Virus record (IMG/VR): IMGVR_UViG_3300027816_000311
Span: 1 to 29,212 of that record
Reading direction: 5' to 3' (one strand)
Origin: a virus
Length of the DNA: 29,212 bases
Made by a program: the position numbers and the translations under genes. Of this stretch, positions 4,406-29,212 are shown piece by piece. Position 1 is the stretch's first letter. Each line of letters starts with the position of its first letter. A model generated the notes under the pieces. That model had not been told where the DNA came from, did not search any database, and saw only the letters and a program-made list of their open reading frames with translations.

Positions 4406-4425
4406 TTAACTAAATACAAAAAAAA

Positions 4426-4848
4426 ATGAGTACAACTTACAACTTTGTATCAAATGACGTAGTACGCCAAGTAGGTGTTTCTGAATCGTTAACTGGTGCA
4501 ACAACTTTGACTGCCGAAGATTCTGGTAAGTCATTTATTTTAAAAGCTGCTACGGGTGCGCAAATTACTTTGCCAGCGGTTGCAACTTCAGCTGGTTTTA
4601 AATTCCGTTTTACAGTAGGTCAACTTTTCGCTACTACTGCATGGACTATTAAAGCCGCTTCAAATGTTATTCAAGGTGGTGTTATTGTAAATTCAGTAAA
4701 CGTTCCTGGGGCTGACGAAAACACGATTACTTTTTCTGCTTCTGCGGACACAGTAGGTGATTTTGTAGAATTGAATTGTGACGGCACTAACTGGTATGTT
4801 TCAGGATTAGGAACTGCTGCTGGTGCAATTACACTAACTGTTGTTTAA
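4426..4848 (+). CDS. head decoration-like or fibre-like beta protein, 140 aa
   Basis: This is a beta-rich, Thr/Ala/Gly-rich protein with few charged residues. Its pattern (LTAEDSGKSFILKAATGAQI, then FKFRFTVGQ, and a C-terminal WYVSGLGTAAGAI) resembles small phage proteins that decorate capsids or form fibre knobs. The product of 9468-9911 has a similar layout: a state or position such as 'D-x-G-K-x-F/I-x-L/V', then a P-rich turn, a 'IGT/VGQ' strand and a terminal W-x-x-S/G. Here it lies directly before the major capsid gene, which favours a capsid decoration role. Function is inferred from position and composition only. Confidence 0.6.
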   Translation: MSTTYNFVSNDVVRQVGVSESLTGATTLTAEDSGKSFILKAATGAQITLPAVATSAGFKFRFTVGQLFATTAWTIKAASNVIQGGVIVNSVNVPGADENTITFSASADTVGDFVELNCDGTNWYVSGLGTAAGAITLTVV

Positions 4849-12413: not shown

Positions 12414-12567
12414 AAACGTGGTTAATACCTATTTTCCGCACAGACCTAACGTAACATATTTGAAGCGCAAGTGGGAAACTAAGATTTGTCCTGAAGATAA
12501 AGGCGGTTCTTTCAACGAAAAGTTATATAGAGATTATTTAGACGCAATAATAAATTACACAAAATGA
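12397..12567 (+). CDS. small unknown protein, 56 aa
   Basis: This is a basic, soluble-looking protein (HRPNVTYLKRKWETKICPED, then NEKLYRDYLDAIINYTK) with one cysteine. I do not recognise a family. It overlaps the preceding membrane protein gene by 17 bases and the following gene by four (ATGA), which supports it as a real member of the operon. Confidence 0.68.
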   Translation: MNSKIKNVVNTYFPHRPNVTYLKRKWETKICPEDKGGSFNEKLYRDYLDAIINYTK

Positions 12568-12833
12568 ACTGGACAAGTAAGCGAAAAAGAACTAAGCAAG
12601 TTCAAATATGTTTTGAGTGGACTGATAAAAGCGATTTAAGGGTAATTTTAGACGATTTAAGAGCGTTAATCGTTTCGGGAGTAGAATCATACCACGACCA
12701 AAAAAAAAGCATTGAGATAGCAGATAAATGGCATGAAGTAGAGTTTCAACAAGAATACATTGATAAGATTCACGAAAGTACGGAATCGGATATTAACGGA
12801 GAATTAAAGTTAGTAATCAAAAGTAATTTTTAA
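12564..12833 (+). CDS. small unknown protein, 89 aa
   Basis: I do not recognise this protein. A basic N-terminus (MNWTSKRKRTKQ) is followed by mixed alpha/beta sequence. The middle is acidic (ESYHDQKKSIEIADKWHEVE) and the end is a beta-like strand (NGELKLVIKSNF). No membrane segment or catalytic motif is visible. It is coupled to its upstream neighbour through an ATGA overlap and lies three bases before the next gene. Confidence 0.75.
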   Translation: MNWTSKRKRTKQVQICFEWTDKSDLRVILDDLRALIVSGVESYHDQKKSIEIADKWHEVEFQQEYIDKIHESTESDINGELKLVIKSNF

Positions 12834-19529: not shown

Positions 19530-19730
19530 GTGAGACACATACTACTTTTTCCACTACTTATAACCCTGTTCACATTGGATAGGGTTTTTTTGGTTATATG
19601 TTTTTGGAAAAGCAGTTTTAAATTTGAGCGCTGGGTATATAAAGACGAACTGATATTGGAATCAATCCACCGTGTTTTATTAGGGTTGTCAACTATTTCT
19701 TTAATTTTATTATCTACTTCAATTTGGTGA
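19530..19730 (+). CDS. possible small membrane protein with GTG start, 66 aa
   Basis: This open frame would encode a protein with two hydrophobic segments (HILLFPLLITLFTLDRVFLV and HRVLLGLSTISLILLSTSIW) linked by a charged part. Its TGA stop overlaps a GTG that may begin the sigma-like gene. Against it, no ATG is present, the GTG lies at or before the predicted transcription start and the terminator-like hairpin is inside the frame. It may be an attenuator leader instead of a gene. Confidence 0.33.
   Translation: MRHILLFPLLITLFTLDRVFLVICFWKSSFKFERWVYKDELILESIHRVLLGLSTISLILLSTSIW
19562..19591 (+). terminator. terminator-like hairpin in leader of sigma-like gene
   Basis: A 6-bp stem (19562-19567 with 19581-19586) with a 13-base loop is followed by a run of seven T residues. 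It lies 40 bases after the promoter and before the sigma-like gene, so it could attenuate its expression. Confidence 0.65.
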
Positions 19731-19735
19731 ATCAA

Positions 19736-20263
19736 ATGTTTTTAATAGAACTAAGCAAGCACCACAAAGACTGGATTAGAATAGTTAGCGCCTTAGGAGA
19801 GGAATTATACTGCGAGGATATAGTACAAGAGATGTATCTCAAAATGGCAAAGCTGGAAAATATAGAACGATTTTACATAAACGAAAAGCTAAATAAGAAC
19901 TTTGTTTGGACTGTACTAAGGAACATGACTTGCGATTACCAAAAGAGTAAACAACGATTACTGAAAGTAAATATTACTGAAGCGATGCAAGTAAAAGACG
20001 AATACGAACCAGAAGTATTAGAAGCCAAAAAAAGATTTGAAATAAAAATAAATGAAGAAGTAAAAAGCTGGCATTGGTACGATCAACTATTGTTTGACCT
20101 TTACCGAACTTCAGGGATGAGTACACGACAAATAGAGGGAGTTACCGGAATAAGTTTTAAAAGCGTATGGAAAACTATTAAGACTTGCAAAGACCGATTG
20201 AAAGAAAATGTAGGAGAACATTACGAAGATTTAAAGAACCAGGATTACGAATTAATAAAATGA
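19736..20263 (+). CDS. sigma-70-family-like RNA polymerase sigma factor
   Basis: A likely phage sigma factor that redirects host RNA polymerase. The N-terminal half contains a region-2-like segment: YCEDIVQEMYLKMAKL, then NFVWTVLRNMTCDYQKSKQR, which fits the polymerase- and -10-binding helices. The C-terminal half has a region-4 HTH: DLYRTSGMSTRQIEGVTGIS, then FKSVWKTIKTCKDRLKENV. At about 175 residues it is the size of ECF-type sigmas. ATG 19736 is used; GTG 19727 in an overlap with the upstream frame is possible. It precedes the methyltransferase and terminase genes, so it could control late transcription. Confidence 0.75.
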   Translation: MFLIELSKHHKDWIRIVSALGEELYCEDIVQEMYLKMAKLENIERFYINEKLNKNFVWTVLRNMTCDYQKSKQRLLKVNITEAMQVKDEYEPEVLEAKKRFEIKINEEVKSWHWYDQLLFDLYRTSGMSTRQIEGVTGISFKSVWKTIKTCKDRLKENVGEHYEDLKNQDYELIK

Positions 20264-20479: not shown

Positions 20480-20929
20480 ATGAAAAGAAAAAGACGGACA
20501 AAAGCTGAAATTGAAGCAAGTAAATTACCTACTTATGAAGTTGTAATTGATGAAAAAGCTTCAGGAGTAGAAAATATAAGTTTAGGATTAGGAGACACAG
20601 TTGAAAAGGTATTAGAAGTTACTGGAGTAGCTAAATTGGCTAAATGGGTAATGGGTGAAGATTGCGGTTGCGATGAGAGAAAAGAAAAACTCAATGCTTT
20701 ATTTCCTTACCGCAAACCTGAATGTTTACTAAAACACGAACACGAATACTTAGAAAATTGGTTTAAAGAAAAAAGATACTCAATGAGACCTACCGAACAA
20801 AAAGAAATACTTGCTATTTATAACCGAGTATTTAAGGTAAATATGCAACCAACTTCTTGCGGTAGTTGTTTACGTGATGTAATGAATAAATTAGAGATAT
20901 TATTTAACACGTACGATGCAAATAGTTAA
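20480..20929 (+). CDS. CGCDERK cysteine-motif phage protein, 149 aa
   Basis: Function is unknown, but I recognise the pattern as recurring in Bacteroidota phages near terminase and sigma genes. A basic N-terminus (MKRKRRTKAEIEASK) is followed by GLGDTVEKVLEVTGVAKLAK and a motif EDCGCDERKEKLNALFPYRK. A second pair of cysteines occurs at SCGSCLRDVMNKLE near the end. Four cysteines in C-x-C and C-x-x-C arrangement suggest a zinc site. It overlaps the next gene by 14 bases. A regulatory or packaging accessory function is possible by location. Confidence 0.7.
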   Translation: MKRKRRTKAEIEASKLPTYEVVIDEKASGVENISLGLGDTVEKVLEVTGVAKLAKWVMGEDCGCDERKEKLNALFPYRKPECLLKHEHEYLENWFKEKRYSMRPTEQKEILAIYNRVFKVNMQPTSCGSCLRDVMNKLEILFNTYDANS

Positions 20930-22088
20930 GATAAGCGAGGTTAAACCCAACCCGAAGAACCCAAGGATAATAAAAGACGGAAAATTTCAAAAGTTAGTTA
21001 AGTCTATTCAAGAATTTCCTGATATGCTAAATAAACGCCCTCTAATCGTCTTTACAGATGTTGACGGTAAATATTGCGTATTGGGTGGTAATATGCGTTT
21101 AAAAGCCTTAAATGAGTTAAAATTTAAAGAAATACCTATTATAGTAGCAGACGAATGGACGGAGGAACAAAAAAACGAATTCTTAATTAAAGATAACGTA
21201 GGTTTTGGTGAATGGGATTGGGATAGTTTAGCAAATGAATGGGATGCGGAAAAGTTAGATGACTGGGGATTAGATTTACCAATTGATTTAAGAGTTGAAG
21301 AAGAACTGGAAGCAGAAGAAGATAACTACGAAATACCTGACGAGATAAACACGGACATAGTAATAGGAGATTTATTTGAGATAGGCGAACACCGTTTACT
21401 TTGTGGGGATAGTACGGATAGCGACCAAGTTGCAAAATTAATGAATGGAGAAAAGGCTGATATGGTATTAAGCGACCCACCTTATGGAATGTTTTTAGAT
21501 GCTGATTATTCAAGTTTAAATTGGGGAGATAGAAAAGGCAAAAAATATGATAATGTAATTGGAGATCATGAAGATTTCAATCCTGAATTGATAAATACTT
21601 TTTTTAAGCATTTTGATTACTGCAAGGAAATGTTTTTATGGGGTGCTGATTATTATTTTGAATTATTACCTGAATTTAAAAAAGGTAATTATATTGTTTG
21701 GGATAAAACTTTACAAAGTAATGGTGATGCTGGTAGTAATTCCGAATTTGAACTTTGTTGGTCAAGACAAAAACATAAAAGAGTTGTTTTACATTTTAAC
21801 TGGTTTAGATATTTTGGATTACAAAGTCAAGATACAAAAACACGATTACACCCAACTCAAAAACCACTTGAAGTAAATAAACATTTTATTGAAAGTTATA
21901 CAAAAGAAAAAGAATATATTATAGATTTATTTTTAGGTTCAGGTTCTACAATGGTAGCTTCACACCAACTTAAACGCAAATGTTACGGAATGGAATTAGA
22001 CCCGAAGTATTGCCAAGTTATAATAGACCGTATGAAAAAACTTGACCCGAGTTTACTTATTAAAAAAAACGGAGTTGAATTAAAATAA
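20916..22088 (+). CDS. ParB-like domain fused to DNA methyltransferase (probably N6-adenine)
   Basis: A two-domain enzyme. Residues 1-120 form a ParB/Srx-like domain (ISEVKPNPKNPRIIK, then CVLGGNMRLKALNEL with GGNMR at 57-61). An acidic linker follows (about 125-150). From 150 on is the methyltransferase: the typical entry IVIGDLFEIGEHRLLCGDST, the catalytic DPPY at 187-190, a variable target-recognition region, then DLFLGSGST at 336-344 for AdoMet binding. The order DPPY before the G-x-G motif defines a beta-class enzyme. DPPY suggests N6-adenine, though N4-cytosine cannot be excluded. Such fusions are common in phages and may protect DNA from host restriction. No restriction enzyme accompanies it. 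Confidence 0.85.
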   Translation: MQIVKISEVKPNPKNPRIIKDGKFQKLVKSIQEFPDMLNKRPLIVFTDVDGKYCVLGGNMRLKALNELKFKEIPIIVADEWTEEQKNEFLIKDNVGFGEWDWDSLANEWDAEKLDDWGLDLPIDLRVEEELEAEEDNYEIPDEINTDIVIGDLFEIGEHRLLCGDSTDSDQVAKLMNGEKADMVLSDPPYGMFLDADYSSLNWGDRKGKKYDNVIGDHEDFNPELINTFFKHFDYCKEMFLWGADYYFELLPEFKKGNYIVWDKTLQSNGDAGSNSEFELCWSRQKHKRVVLHFNWFRYFGLQSQDTKTRLHPTQKPLEVNKHFIESYTKEKEYIIDLFLGSGSTMVASHQLKRKCYGMELDPKYCQVIIDRMKKLDPSLLIKKNGVELK

Positions 22089-22109: not shown

Positions 22110-22445
22110 ATGGCAGGCAAAGGACAAATAGAACCACGTTGGGAAAAAGGCGAAAGCGGAAACCCTAACGGACGACCTAAAGGAGCAAAGAACAGAAGCA
22201 CAATAGCAAAGTACTGGCTGGAGGTAAATCAAAAGCTAAAAAACCCTTTAACGGGTGCTGAAGAAACAATGTCGCAAGAAGATTTAATGACATTAGCACT
22301 AATTAAAAAAGCACGTGAAGGTGATGTAGCAGCATATAAGGCTTTAATGGATAGCGGTTACGGTGCGCCTTTACAACAAATTGAACAAACAGTTTTAGAA
22401 CAGCCAATATTTCCTGATGTTTCTGCGGACGACTTCGACGAATAA
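22110..22445 (+). CDS. terS: terminase small subunit-like (DUF5681-type) protein
   Basis: The N-terminus has the DUF5681 signature EKGESGNPNGRPKGAKN, a basic DNA-contact-like segment. A helical middle (STIAKYWLEVNQKLKN, then QEDLMTLALIKKAREGDVAA) and an acidic tail ending SADDFDE follow. It overlaps the large terminase gene by 29 bases, and small subunits normally lie just upstream of the large one, where they recognise the packaging site. The family is not proven to be a TerS but position and composition agree. Confidence 0.7.
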   Translation: MAGKGQIEPRWEKGESGNPNGRPKGAKNRSTIAKYWLEVNQKLKNPLTGAEETMSQEDLMTLALIKKAREGDVAAYKALMDSGYGAPLQQIEQTVLEQPIFPDVSADDFDE

Positions 22446-23577
22446 AATACTTAAACTTAAAAAACGAGTTCGTATTATTCAGGGTGGCACAAGTGCTGCC
22501 AAGACGTACGGAATATTATCTGTTTTAATAGCGCGTGCTTCTGCAATACACGGACTCGAAGTTAGCGTAGTTGCTGAAAGTATTCCGCATTTAAGAAGGG
22601 GTGCTTTAAAGGACTTTATTAAGCTAATGAAGTGGATGAATAAATGGCACGAAAACCAATTTAACAAATCGTTATTAACCTATCAATTTTTAAACGGAAG
22701 CAGCTTTGAATTTTTTAGCGCTGATGACAGTTCTAAATTACGGGGTGCAAGGCGTGACGTTTTATACATAAACGAATGTAACAACGTAACCTTTGAGTCT
22801 TACAACGAGCTTGCGATACGTACAAAGAAAGCTATCTATTTAGACTTCAATCCAGCTAATGAGTTTTGGGTACACAAGGAACTAAAAGACGAACCCGACT
22901 CAGACTTTTTAATTTTGACCTACAAAGATAACGAAGCTCTTGACAAGTCAATAGTTGACCAAATAGAAAAGAACCGTTTAAAAGCGGAAACAAGTAGCTA
23001 TTGGAGCAACTGGTGGAGGGTTTACGGATTAGGTGAAATAGGAATGCTTGAAGGTGTTATATTCTCAAACTGGAAACAAATAGACAAACTACCGATTGAA
23101 GCAAAGTTAATAGGAATCGGATTAGACTTTGGTTACACAAACGATCCAACTGCAATAATTGAAATATATAATTATAACGGCCAACGGATATTAAACGAAC
23201 TGAAGTACCAAACAGGAATGCTTAATTCAGATATTGCAAAGGAGCTACCAAAACACGTACCCGTTTACGCTGATTCAAGCGAGCCTAAAAGCATAGACGA
23301 AATAAGGCGCTATGGAATAACTATTAAAGGTGTTACAAAAGGCAAGGATTCAATAAACTACGGTATTGATGTTATGCAGCGCCAGGATTATTTAGTTACT
23401 TCTAATAGCGTTAATTTAATTAAAGAACTTCGTTCCTACTGTTGGGACACTGATAAAGCTGGAACACGTTTAAACAAGCCTATTGACACAAATAATCACG
23501 CTATTGATGCGCTACGATATCATGAAATGGAGACCTTAGGGTTAAATGCTAACTATGGTAAGTATCATATTTGGTAA
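22417..23577 (+). CDS. terL: terminase large subunit (packaging ATPase and nuclease)
   Basis: This packages DNA into the prohead and cuts the concatemer. Residues 23-30 (GGTSAAKT) are the Walker A, with a shifted glycine layout typical of terminases. Walker B follows at DVLYINE with Glu120. The RNase H-like nuclease has Asp237 in GLDFGYTND, Asp286 in VYADSSE and Asp364 in NHAIDALRY. At 386 residues it is somewhat short but contains both domains. Start ATG 22417 is internal to the small subunit gene. Confidence 0.92.
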   Translation: MFLRTTSTNKILKLKKRVRIIQGGTSAAKTYGILSVLIARASAIHGLEVSVVAESIPHLRRGALKDFIKLMKWMNKWHENQFNKSLLTYQFLNGSSFEFFSADDSSKLRGARRDVLYINECNNVTFESYNELAIRTKKAIYLDFNPANEFWVHKELKDEPDSDFLILTYKDNEALDKSIVDQIEKNRLKAETSSYWSNWWRVYGLGEIGMLEGVIFSNWKQIDKLPIEAKLIGIGLDFGYTNDPTAIIEIYNYNGQRILNELKYQTGMLNSDIAKELPKHVPVYADSSEPKSIDEIRRYGITIKGVTKGKDSINYGIDVMQRQDYLVTSNSVNLIKELRSYCWDTDKAGTRLNKPIDTNNHAIDALRYHEMETLGLNANYGKYHIW

Positions 23578-23668: not shown

Positions 23669-24388
23669 ATGAAAACAGAAATAGTAATACCTACTTCTTT
23701 GAGTGAAATTCCTTTAAAGTGCTACCAAGAATTTATGAAGGTAGTAGAAAAATCAAACGATGAGGAATTTATAGGACAAAAGACCGTTGAAATATTTTGC
23801 GGTTTACAAATGAAAGACGTTGTAAGGGTGAAATGGAGCGATATACGGGATTTAACATTACACCTGAATAAAATATTCAAAGAGAAGCCTAAATTTCAGC
23901 ACACGTTTAAAATCAAAGGTACTGAATTTGGTTTCATTCCTAATTTAGAGGACATGACTTTTGGAGAGTACATTGATTTAGAAACAAACATATCCAGCGT
24001 AGAGAATTTTCACAAAGCGATGGCTGTAATGTACAGACCTATCACAAAGAAAGTGAAAGACCGATACGAGATATTTCCGTACATAGGAACGGATGAATTC
24101 AGCGAGGTAATGAAGTACGCTTCTTTGGATGTTGTCTTAGGTGCAACGGTTTTTTTTTCGACTTTAGGAAGCGACTTAGTACAACATACGCTTACCTATT
24201 TGGAGAAAGAGATGAAGATGAACCCGAAATTAATGACTTTAGCGAAAGAGCGCAATTTAATAAAAGATGGGGATGGTACAATTCAATCTATGCACTTGCT
24301 AAAGGAGACGTTACAAAGTTTGATGATGTTACCAAGCTGGGGGTTAGAAAGTGTCTTACCTATCTCACTTACGAAAGGCAAAAATTAG
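23669..24388 (+). CDS. tail assembly chaperone, in-frame product (239 aa)
   Basis: A probable lambda gpG-like chaperone. The first 170 residues carry the conserved pattern of Bacteroidota siphoviruses: IVIPTSLSEIPLKCYQEFMK, then EFGFIPNLEDMTFGEYIDLE and FHKAMAVMYRPITKK. VVLGATVFFSTLGSDL precedes the C-terminus, which ends with a helical tail (SMHLLKETLQSLMMLPSW). A run of nine T residues at 24150-24158 lies within the VFFS codons and is a candidate -1 slippery site. It is in the standard place, between terminase and tail completion genes on one side and tape measure genes on the other. No promoter was found in its 91-base upstream gap. Confidence 0.75.
   Translation: MKTEIVIPTSLSEIPLKCYQEFMKVVEKSNDEEFIGQKTVEIFCGLQMKDVVRVKWSDIRDLTLHLNKIFKEKPKFQHTFKIKGTEFGFIPNLEDMTFGEYIDLETNISSVENFHKAMAVMYRPITKKVKDRYEIFPYIGTDEFSEVMKYASLDVVLGATVFFSTLGSDLVQHTLTYLEKEMKMNPKLMTLAKERNLIKDGDGTIQSMHLLKETLQSLMMLPSWGLESVLPISLTKGKN
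24150..24158 (+). other. candidate -1 ribosomal slippery site (T9)
   Basis: Nine consecutive T residues contain the ideal heptamer T TTT TTT in the chaperone's frame. The -1 frame is open from 24097 to the stop at 24430-24432. No downstream pseudoknot was examined. Confidence 0.6.
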
Positions 24389-24432
24389 AAATAGAAGAAA
24401 GAGAAATTAAAAGAATAAGAAAACATGGCTAA
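24157..24432 (+). CDS. -1 frame extension of tail assembly chaperone (gpGT-like), 91 codons
   Basis: After a -1 slip in the T9 run the frame continues for 91 codons, giving a fusion of about 254 residues with the start at 23669. Its C-terminal part reads WGWYNSIYALAKGDVTKF, then DDVTKLGVRKCLTYLTYERQ, ending in a charged helix. That pattern (GWY-x-x-IY-x-LA-x-GD ... L-x-YE) is the one I associate with the second, frameshifted chaperone domain of Bacteroidota phages, which binds the tape measure. There is no suitable ATG within it. The last eight bases overlap the next gene. Dual coding with the in-frame tail covers 24158-24388. Confidence 0.7.
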   Translation, partial: FDFRKRLSTTYAYLFGERDEDEPEINDFSERAQFNKRWGWYNSIYALAKGDVTKFDDVTKLGVRKCLTYLTYERQKLEIEEREIKRIRKHG

Positions 24433-24880
24433 CTATTACACGATATTAGATACACTAAAAACGAACTTGAATAATGATCCGTTTATTAACACGGTAACAC
24501 AAGGTGATATATTTGCAGTTGACTTAGCTAAGCAGACTATATTTCCTTTGTGCCATATTATAGTAAATAGCGCTACGTTTGAAAGTAATATAATTCGTTT
24601 TAACGTGAGTATAATGGCAATGGATATTGTCAACAAATCAAAAGACGAAGATACAGACGTATTTAATGGAAACGATAATGAGGTTTATGTACTTAATACA
24701 ATGATTTCTGTATTGAATAGGTTATACGAGGAGTTAAGACGTGGAGACTTATACACTTTGCCGTTTCAAGTTGACGGTAACCCGGGTTTAGAGCCATTTG
24801 CTGAAAGGTTTGAAAACTATTTAGCTGGTTGGACAATGACGTTCGATATTTTAGTTCCTAACGATATGACTGTTTGTTAA
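24425..24880 (+). CDS. tail completion or head-tail joining protein, 151 aa
   Basis: The pattern ANYYTILDTLKTNLNNDPFI, then NTVTQGDIFAVDLAKQTIFP and a late RFENYLAGWTMTFDILVPND recurs in Bacteroidota phages beside the tail genes. It is an alpha/beta fold of the type found in tail terminator and neck proteins. The last part reads as two beta strands. It is coupled to the next gene by TAATG. I am sure of the family pattern but less so of the precise joint it seals. Confidence 0.65.
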   Translation: MANYYTILDTLKTNLNNDPFINTVTQGDIFAVDLAKQTIFPLCHIIVNSATFESNIIRFNVSIMAMDIVNKSKDEDTDVFNGNDNEVYVLNTMISVLNRLYEELRRGDLYTLPFQVDGNPGLEPFAERFENYLAGWTMTFDILVPNDMTVC

Positions 24881-28867: not shown

Positions 28868-29025
28868 TTCAACTAATTTTAGAACTATTAAAGAGCGATG
28901 ATTTCTACGGGGTGAGTGAGATAGTAGATGTCGCCAAAGGAAAACACGAACTAACAGGAAACTTAAAAAAGATTTATAAACAAGAAAAGCGTAAACAATG
29001 GCTGAAACAAGAACGATTGAATTAA
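28864..29025 (+). CDS. small basic helical protein, 53 aa
   Basis: An ATGA overlap couples it to the large tail gene, and it overlaps the tape measure start by 28 bases. The product starts MIQLILELLKSDDFYGVSEI and ends in a very basic helix (NLKKIYKQEKRKQWLKQERL). It may chaperone the tape measure, as small ORFs before tape measure genes do. No family is recognised. Confidence 0.6.
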   Translation: MIQLILELLKSDDFYGVSEIVDVAKGKHELTGNLKKIYKQEKRKQWLKQERLN

Positions 29026-29212
29026 ATATAGTTGACAACGCAAATCAAACGCAGCAGCAGTTTGAAAACCTACGACAACAGATTGCAAAGACTACTCAAG
29101 AAGTTGATGAGTTAACACAAGCCTATGGTGAAAACAGCCAAGAAGTAACGGAAGCCAAAGGTAGGTTAAACGAATTAAACACGAGCTACAAAGAGTTAAA
29201 TAAAAGCGCTAC
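28998..29212 (+). CDS. tail tape measure protein, N-terminal part (continues at base 3 of the window)
   Basis: The start of the tape-measure gene. It encodes MAETRTIELNIVDNANQTQQ and a helical continuation (QQFENLRQQIAKTTQEVDEL) that stays in frame through the duplicated 127 bases into 3-2282. The N-terminus resembles TMPs by its Q/N/E-rich coiled coil. The start ATG lies within the preceding small gene. Confidence 0.88.
   Translation, partial: MAETRTIELNIVDNANQTQQQFENLRQQIAKTTQEVDELTQAYGENSQEVTEAKGRLNELNTSYKELNKSA
29086..29212. repeat. terminal direct repeat, right copy (circular contig overlap)
   Basis: Identical to bases 1-127. It should be counted once; removing it gives the circular genome of 29,085 bp. 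Confidence 0.95.

Follow-up and report, generated by a model that had tools for sequence, protein, structure and literature searches.

Comparative sequence evidence strongly supports a programmed switch to the -1 frame at nine consecutive T's (T9) in a structural gene of this phage, which would lead to two products of 239 and 254 aa. Comparison with relatives shows that the site, its phase, both reading frames and the double coding of the stretch that they share are under selection. As the source of the frame change, transcriptional slippage is moderately favored over ribosomal frameshifting, and the two proteins probably act as tail assembly chaperones (TACs), a best guess drawn from the layout of the gene.

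The window, which is the whole 29,212-nt stretch of DNA analyzed here, represents an entire small siphovirus-like genome with 127-base direct repeats at both ends (1-127 and 29086-29212), so that the contig closes into a full circular map of about 29.1 kb. The T9 gene belongs to a structural operon and lies right after the terminase genes, with the gene for the terminase large subunit (22417-23577, + strand; Pfam Terminase_3 / Terminase_3C) directly upstream. Four genes separate it from the downstream tape measure gene, which starts at 28998-29212 (+), runs on at 3-2282 across the 127-base terminal repeat and has PHROG tape measure hits. The next gene of the operon (24425-24880, +) encodes a 151-aa protein of PHROG 30964, function unknown, and its ATG falls within the end of the -1 ORF (ATGGCTAA), which overlaps the first codons of this gene at 24425-24432 in operon style; the position of the ATG is consistent with coupling. 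Elsewhere in the genome, the protein encoded at 19724-20263 is weakly sigma-factor-like (PHROG 1740, E 1.9e-4), and it is possible that the phage redirects the host RNA polymerase. In addition, positions 20916-22088 encode a ParB-like N-terminal domain fused to an N6/N4 DNA methylase.

The T9 run occupies positions 24150-24158 (+) in the 0-frame ORF at 23669-24388 (+), the frame in which the preliminary description had correctly placed it, and this ORF, which encodes the short, G-like product of 239 aa, reads GTT TTT TTT TCG (V F F S) across the run. The heptamer T_TTT_TTT at 24151-24157 (+) lies in phase within the run and has the form XXXYYYZ, at which -1 slippage by a ribosome would be possible. 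The open stretch of the -1 frame extends from stop to stop between 24097 and 24432 (+), limits that had been proposed earlier and were recovered on recomputation. This frame contains no listed ATG, GTG or TTG start and hence requires either a frame change or a non-standard start; an ordinary start of its own was rejected for the same reason. Slippage at T9 would produce a fusion ending FDFRKRLSTTYAYLFG...RWGWYNSIYALAKGDVTKFDDV...LTYERQK..., which would have its 163 N-terminal residues in common with the short product and its last 91 residues from the -1 frame. The latter form a T-like domain (24157-24432, +; FDFRKR...RWGWYNSIYALAKGD...LTYERQK) that is all-helical in the structural model and is kept down to the Nonlabens phages (about 24%). 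The expectation of two products of 239 and about 254 residues with some 230 bases read twice was borne out by recomputed lengths of 239 and 254 residues and a stretch of about 231 bases (24158-24388, +) coding in both the 0 and -1 frames. Right after the run, a TAG in the +1 frame (24165-24167, +) terminates the product of any U8 or U11 message; a +1-frame stop at this codon is present in 130 of 133 relatives, although it may be retained for other reasons, owing to the double coding.

Among all coding sequences of the window, one T run of at least nine was seen (the run at 24150-24158), where synonymous resampling predicts 0.19. Over the whole window, A9 and T9 runs are rarer than expected (3 versus 13.4). 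An A9 run at 12700-12708, within the CDS at 12564-12833, is another possible slippage place, and a further A9 run, at 4418-4426, ends with the first base of the start codon of the gene at 4426-4848; this run may influence initiation or be a mere leader feature.

Relatives were found in IMG/VR by protein similarity, using as query the part of the protein that precedes the slip, so their choice did not depend on the T run. Exactly nine T's, in the same phase, occur in each of the first 80 relatives (83-100% identical) and in the window copy (81/81), with no variation in run length among these close loci such as a phase-variable homopolymer would display. Of the 81 loci, those long enough to judge have 91 open codons in the -1 frame, except one in which this frame continues into the next gene. 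A wider search reached 33-50% identity and bacterial contigs, four of which were found in a second contig scan (the first gave none), all carrying T9. Altogether, over 300 loci yielded 249 distinct site sequences at about 27-100% identity, with T9 in 244, T10 in five and a shorter run in none. The phase of the run is unchanged down to 27-34% identity, including the Nonlabens phages P12024S and P12024L as well as a cultured Flavobacterium (L417). The latter, Flavobacterium sp. MFBS3-15, has a homologous module (L417:5944-6639) with terminase, T9 gene and downstream genes, which is probably a prophage or prophage remnant. When three different family members were used as tblastn queries against annotated phages, no homologues besides those of the Nonlabens phages were found.

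Homopolymers are prone to error, and it could be argued that the run reflects a sequencing or assembly mistake, or a homopolymer that is phase-variable at the DNA level. One contig (L332:958-984) does have a genuine additional T, which joins the two frames in the DNA and gives an open frame of 259 codons; this T10 may be a natural variant, an error or a sign that the contig derives from RNA. However, hundreds of independent contigs have exactly nine T's, T10 is rare, T8 was not found, and purifying selection acts on both frames at once. The uniformity of T9 in independent contigs rules out assembly error and DNA-level phase variation, and we regard explanations of this kind as extremely improbable. 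The preliminary description had itself held that resequencing to eight or ten T's, or a lack of conservation of the -1 protein, would argue against a frameshift. An independent DNA scan for the same context, covering contigs of many samples, instead gave at least 119 T9 runs, three T10 and no T8, and the -1 protein is conserved among relatives, including the Nonlabens phages. Four of the five T10 forms among the distinct sequences, such as ATG TTT TTT TTT TGG (L333) and AAT TTT TTT TTT CAT (L394), retain both frames because the adjoining codon has turned into TTT, as do two of the three T10 forms from the DNA scan.

Conservation at the site is concentrated on the run itself. Over 490 nt of 59 equally long sequences, T9 alone forms an invariant block of more than 3 nt, and third positions are invariant only at codons 161-163 and the start codon. 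On a tree of 68 tips, other conserved Phe codons underwent 9-22 third-position changes and the two Phe codons of the run underwent none; on a tree of 194 tips the corresponding numbers are 25-40 and zero, with 14 and 16 changes at the bases flanking the run. These trees were built from T9 sequences, with the five T10 forms set aside, so the lack of change within the run follows in part from this selection; no run that was shorter or interrupted was seen. Base 24158 is T throughout, while the 0-frame residue that it begins is W, Y, S or C. This constancy may be partly a protein-level effect, as the base is also the second of a -1 codon for Leu or Phe. Replacing T with C at 24157 would preserve Phe in the 0 frame and, in 176 of the 194 relatives, Leu in the -1 frame as well (TTR to CTR); these are the relatives with G or A immediately after the run, at the middle position of the 0-frame codon that begins with the last T. 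This change was never seen, although it leaves a legal heptamer, as the XXXYYYZ rule permits C at Z (PMC10274946).

The conclusion that both frames are coding across about 230 bases, and that purifying selection acts on them simultaneously, is based on synonymous resampling, low divergence at fourfold-degenerate sites and a shift in the codon positions that are substituted. After the slip, the 0 frame continues for 76 codons in the window, for 47-90 codons in nearly all complete relatives and for 25 codons in the Nonlabens phages. When either frame is resampled synonymously, the other almost never stays open that far; for the 0 frame, p is below 0.05 in 98.5% of 68 sequences, the exception being a Nonlabens phage (p 0.32). 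Divergence at fourfold-degenerate sites of the overlap is 0.035 for the -1 frame and 0.039 for the 0 frame; the same pairs diverge at such sites by 0.166 upstream and by 0.191 in the following gene, so that in both frames the variation in the overlap is about 4-5 times lower than upstream. Upstream of the overlap, 5815 of 7650 substitutions fall at 0-frame third positions; within it, 1227 of 2322 fall at 0-frame second positions, which are the third positions of the -1 frame. In one close relative, represented by a single contig (L007 and L085), the 0 frame ends at codon 182 with T9 and the -1 frame intact, and the long 0-frame tail may therefore be dispensable.

There are two potential explanations for how the frame change comes about. 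Under transcriptional slippage, the host RNA polymerase would slip on the nine T's and add one U to some of the messages. The resulting U10 message would set the -1 domain in frame and give a protein of exactly 254 aa, and a message that is one U short would end at once at the +1-frame TAG. Such slippage calls for a conserved run of A or T with a length of about nine or more, and a run of this kind is present: it is kept at nine or ten T's in 249 of 249 distinct sequences and is never below nine, and the T10 variants stay long through the change of an adjoining codon to TTT. The threshold known for slippage by RNA polymerase is nine T's. Nine A's or T's is the usual slippage length in bacteria, and nine is also the length at which selection against A/T runs shows in many bacterial genomes (PMC1088944). 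Alternatively, two Phe tRNAs may move back one base at T_TTT_TTT on an unaltered U9 message. This ordinary -1 ribosomal frameshifting is plausible, although we consider it the less probable of the two, since all nine positions are fixed although a heptamer needs T neither at Z nor at the base that follows. The heptamer is itself a good ribosomal slippery site, and lambda and most TAC genes shift -1 on the ribosome (PMC5009743), with ribosomal frameshifting of 6-7% in one TAC cluster (PMC3711429). In addition, HIV-1 uses a similar site, U UUU UUA (PMC4373837).

Ribosomal frameshifting can also be assessed by its stimulators, either a downstream structure or a Shine-Dalgarno (SD)-like element, and neither was found at the site. 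Folding, carried out without an explicit pseudoknot model, gave mean z scores of -0.2 to -0.3, RNAalifold predicted 0 pairs, and no SD-like match of three or more bases was identified in 57 of 69 sequences. Stimulators of -1 ribosomal frameshifting are common but not universal. It is also important to note that their absence is compatible with a ribosomal shift, as low-level slippage would be enough for a chaperone. Nevertheless, a homopolymer requirement fits the pattern of conservation better than a ribosomal heptamer alone, and it is on this basis that slippage by RNA polymerase is preferred. Consequently, of the ordinary -1 slip at T9 put forward in the preliminary description, the programmed -1 change stands on the comparative evidence, but the mechanism is more probably RNA-polymerase slippage. 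Since transcriptional and ribosomal slips would give an identical protein, proteomics alone cannot separate them.

A -1 layout with two products is a hallmark of TACs, and the two proteins may thus represent a chaperone pair like lambda G and GT, in which the slip rate would set the ratio. Database matches are sparse. All 56 homologues examined match PHROG 32199 (function unknown), and six of the 56 also have weak hits to PHROG 166, 'tail protein'. Searches with the proteins of the T9 gene gave no Pfam or NCBIfam match, sequence profiles retrieved no solved structures, and Foldseek searches against the PDB returned chance matches only. In the structural model of the G part, residues from about 10 to 165 form a confident core (pLDDT 80-92) and a long helix (153-184) spans the branch point, beyond which the 0-frame tail is modeled with low confidence. 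Among viral models (BFVD), the best named matches are weak, namely a tail assembly chaperone (E 0.43) and a tape-measure chaperone (E 0.5), and the match to the HK97 tail chaperone 2ob9 is very weak (Z 2.9, rmsd 4.5, 67 aligned) and means little alone. TAC genes usually adjoin the tape measure gene. The T9 gene instead follows a terminase gene directly, with four genes between it and the tape measure gene, and this position, together with the lack of a matching chaperone model, lends some weight to a two-product structural pair of another kind, such as a connector or neck protein that also has a longer, minor version. We consider such a pair rather unlikely, given that the -1 two-product layout is typical of TACs and that the PHROG 166 and structural matches, weak as they are, point to tail proteins and tail chaperones. 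The label of tail assembly chaperone in the preliminary description is therefore kept in part: the two-product layout, the location in a structural operon before the tape measure gene and the weak PHROG 166 and HK97 matches speak for it, but no Pfam or NCBIfam model does so and the PHROG hit carries no function. The earlier view that the -1 domain is typical of the second chaperone protein found no confirmation. A structural neighbor in Flavobacterium phage 6H (17% identity) was set aside, having no T9 and an unclear frame layout. In this gene (L419:10352-10927), a downstream overlap is open in two other frames, possibly reflecting a different recoding event.

Tail chaperone frameshifting is textbook ribosomal recoding. 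Both frameshifted tail chaperones and slippage sites of the T9/A9 type are already known; however, no paper describing tail chaperones made via transcriptional slippage was found in the literature searched (mostly without subscription journals), and neither was a strict T9 across a family of Flavobacteriia phages combined with a long double-coding overlap, which appears to be new within that literature. The evidence leaves it evenly balanced whether a lineage of Flavobacteriia phages has swapped the ribosomal frameshift of TAC genes for RNA-polymerase slippage at a strictly kept T9. If so, the product ratio would be fixed at the RNA level, a built-in TAG would end the third, wrongly slipped class of message, and two protein tails would be double-coded over 60-90 codons. 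In addition, the long and strictly double-coding overlap is useful for methods that seek overlapping genes.

Compared to lambda G/GT, the T9 gene is similar in being a single gene with virion genes as neighbors that would yield an abundant short protein together with a longer one to which the -1 shift adds a second domain. As in the lambda type, the two proteins are predicted to have the same N-terminus and to differ through a -1 change, a prediction made at the sequence level, where the frames are open, conserved and double-coding. Unlike lambda, in which the slip site is a heptamer and the shift occurs near the 3' end of G (PMC5009743), the site here is T9 and the 0 frame continues for about 76 double-coding codons; no sequence homology between the two genes was found. 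The closest annotated counterparts are genes 38/39 of Nonlabens phage P12024S (JQ823122) and 40/41 of P12024L (JQ823123), a homologous pair with T9 in the same phase. They differ in being about 30% identical and in having a 0-frame tail of 25 codons after the slip, which is not longer than chance. In these phages the -1 ORF is listed as a hypothetical CDS of its own, an example of how annotation can overlook the -1 domain.

The slip site of Shigella mxiE is likewise a run of nine T's. Transcriptional slippage at this U run adds one nucleotide and fuses mxiEa and mxiEb, and as in the T9 gene the run lies in the overlap of two ORFs; the longer product requires one extra U (PMC1088944), as would be the case here under transcriptional slippage. 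However, mxiE is a bacterial regulator gene, whereas the gene described here belongs to a phage and its 0-frame tail is also long and selected. Transcriptional slippage also occurs at A9 in Thermus dnaX (PMC1088944) and, without ribosomal stimulators, at A11 in Citrobacter rodentium tssM1 (PMC4256274). These systems resemble the T9 gene in having a homopolymer of at least nine and two products at a set ratio, as predicted here, but their runs consist of A rather than T, and slippage in dnaX leads to the shorter of the two products. If RNA-polymerase slippage does operate at T9, what is conserved among tail chaperone genes would be the ratio of the two products and not the machine that sets it, as is the case for dnaX.
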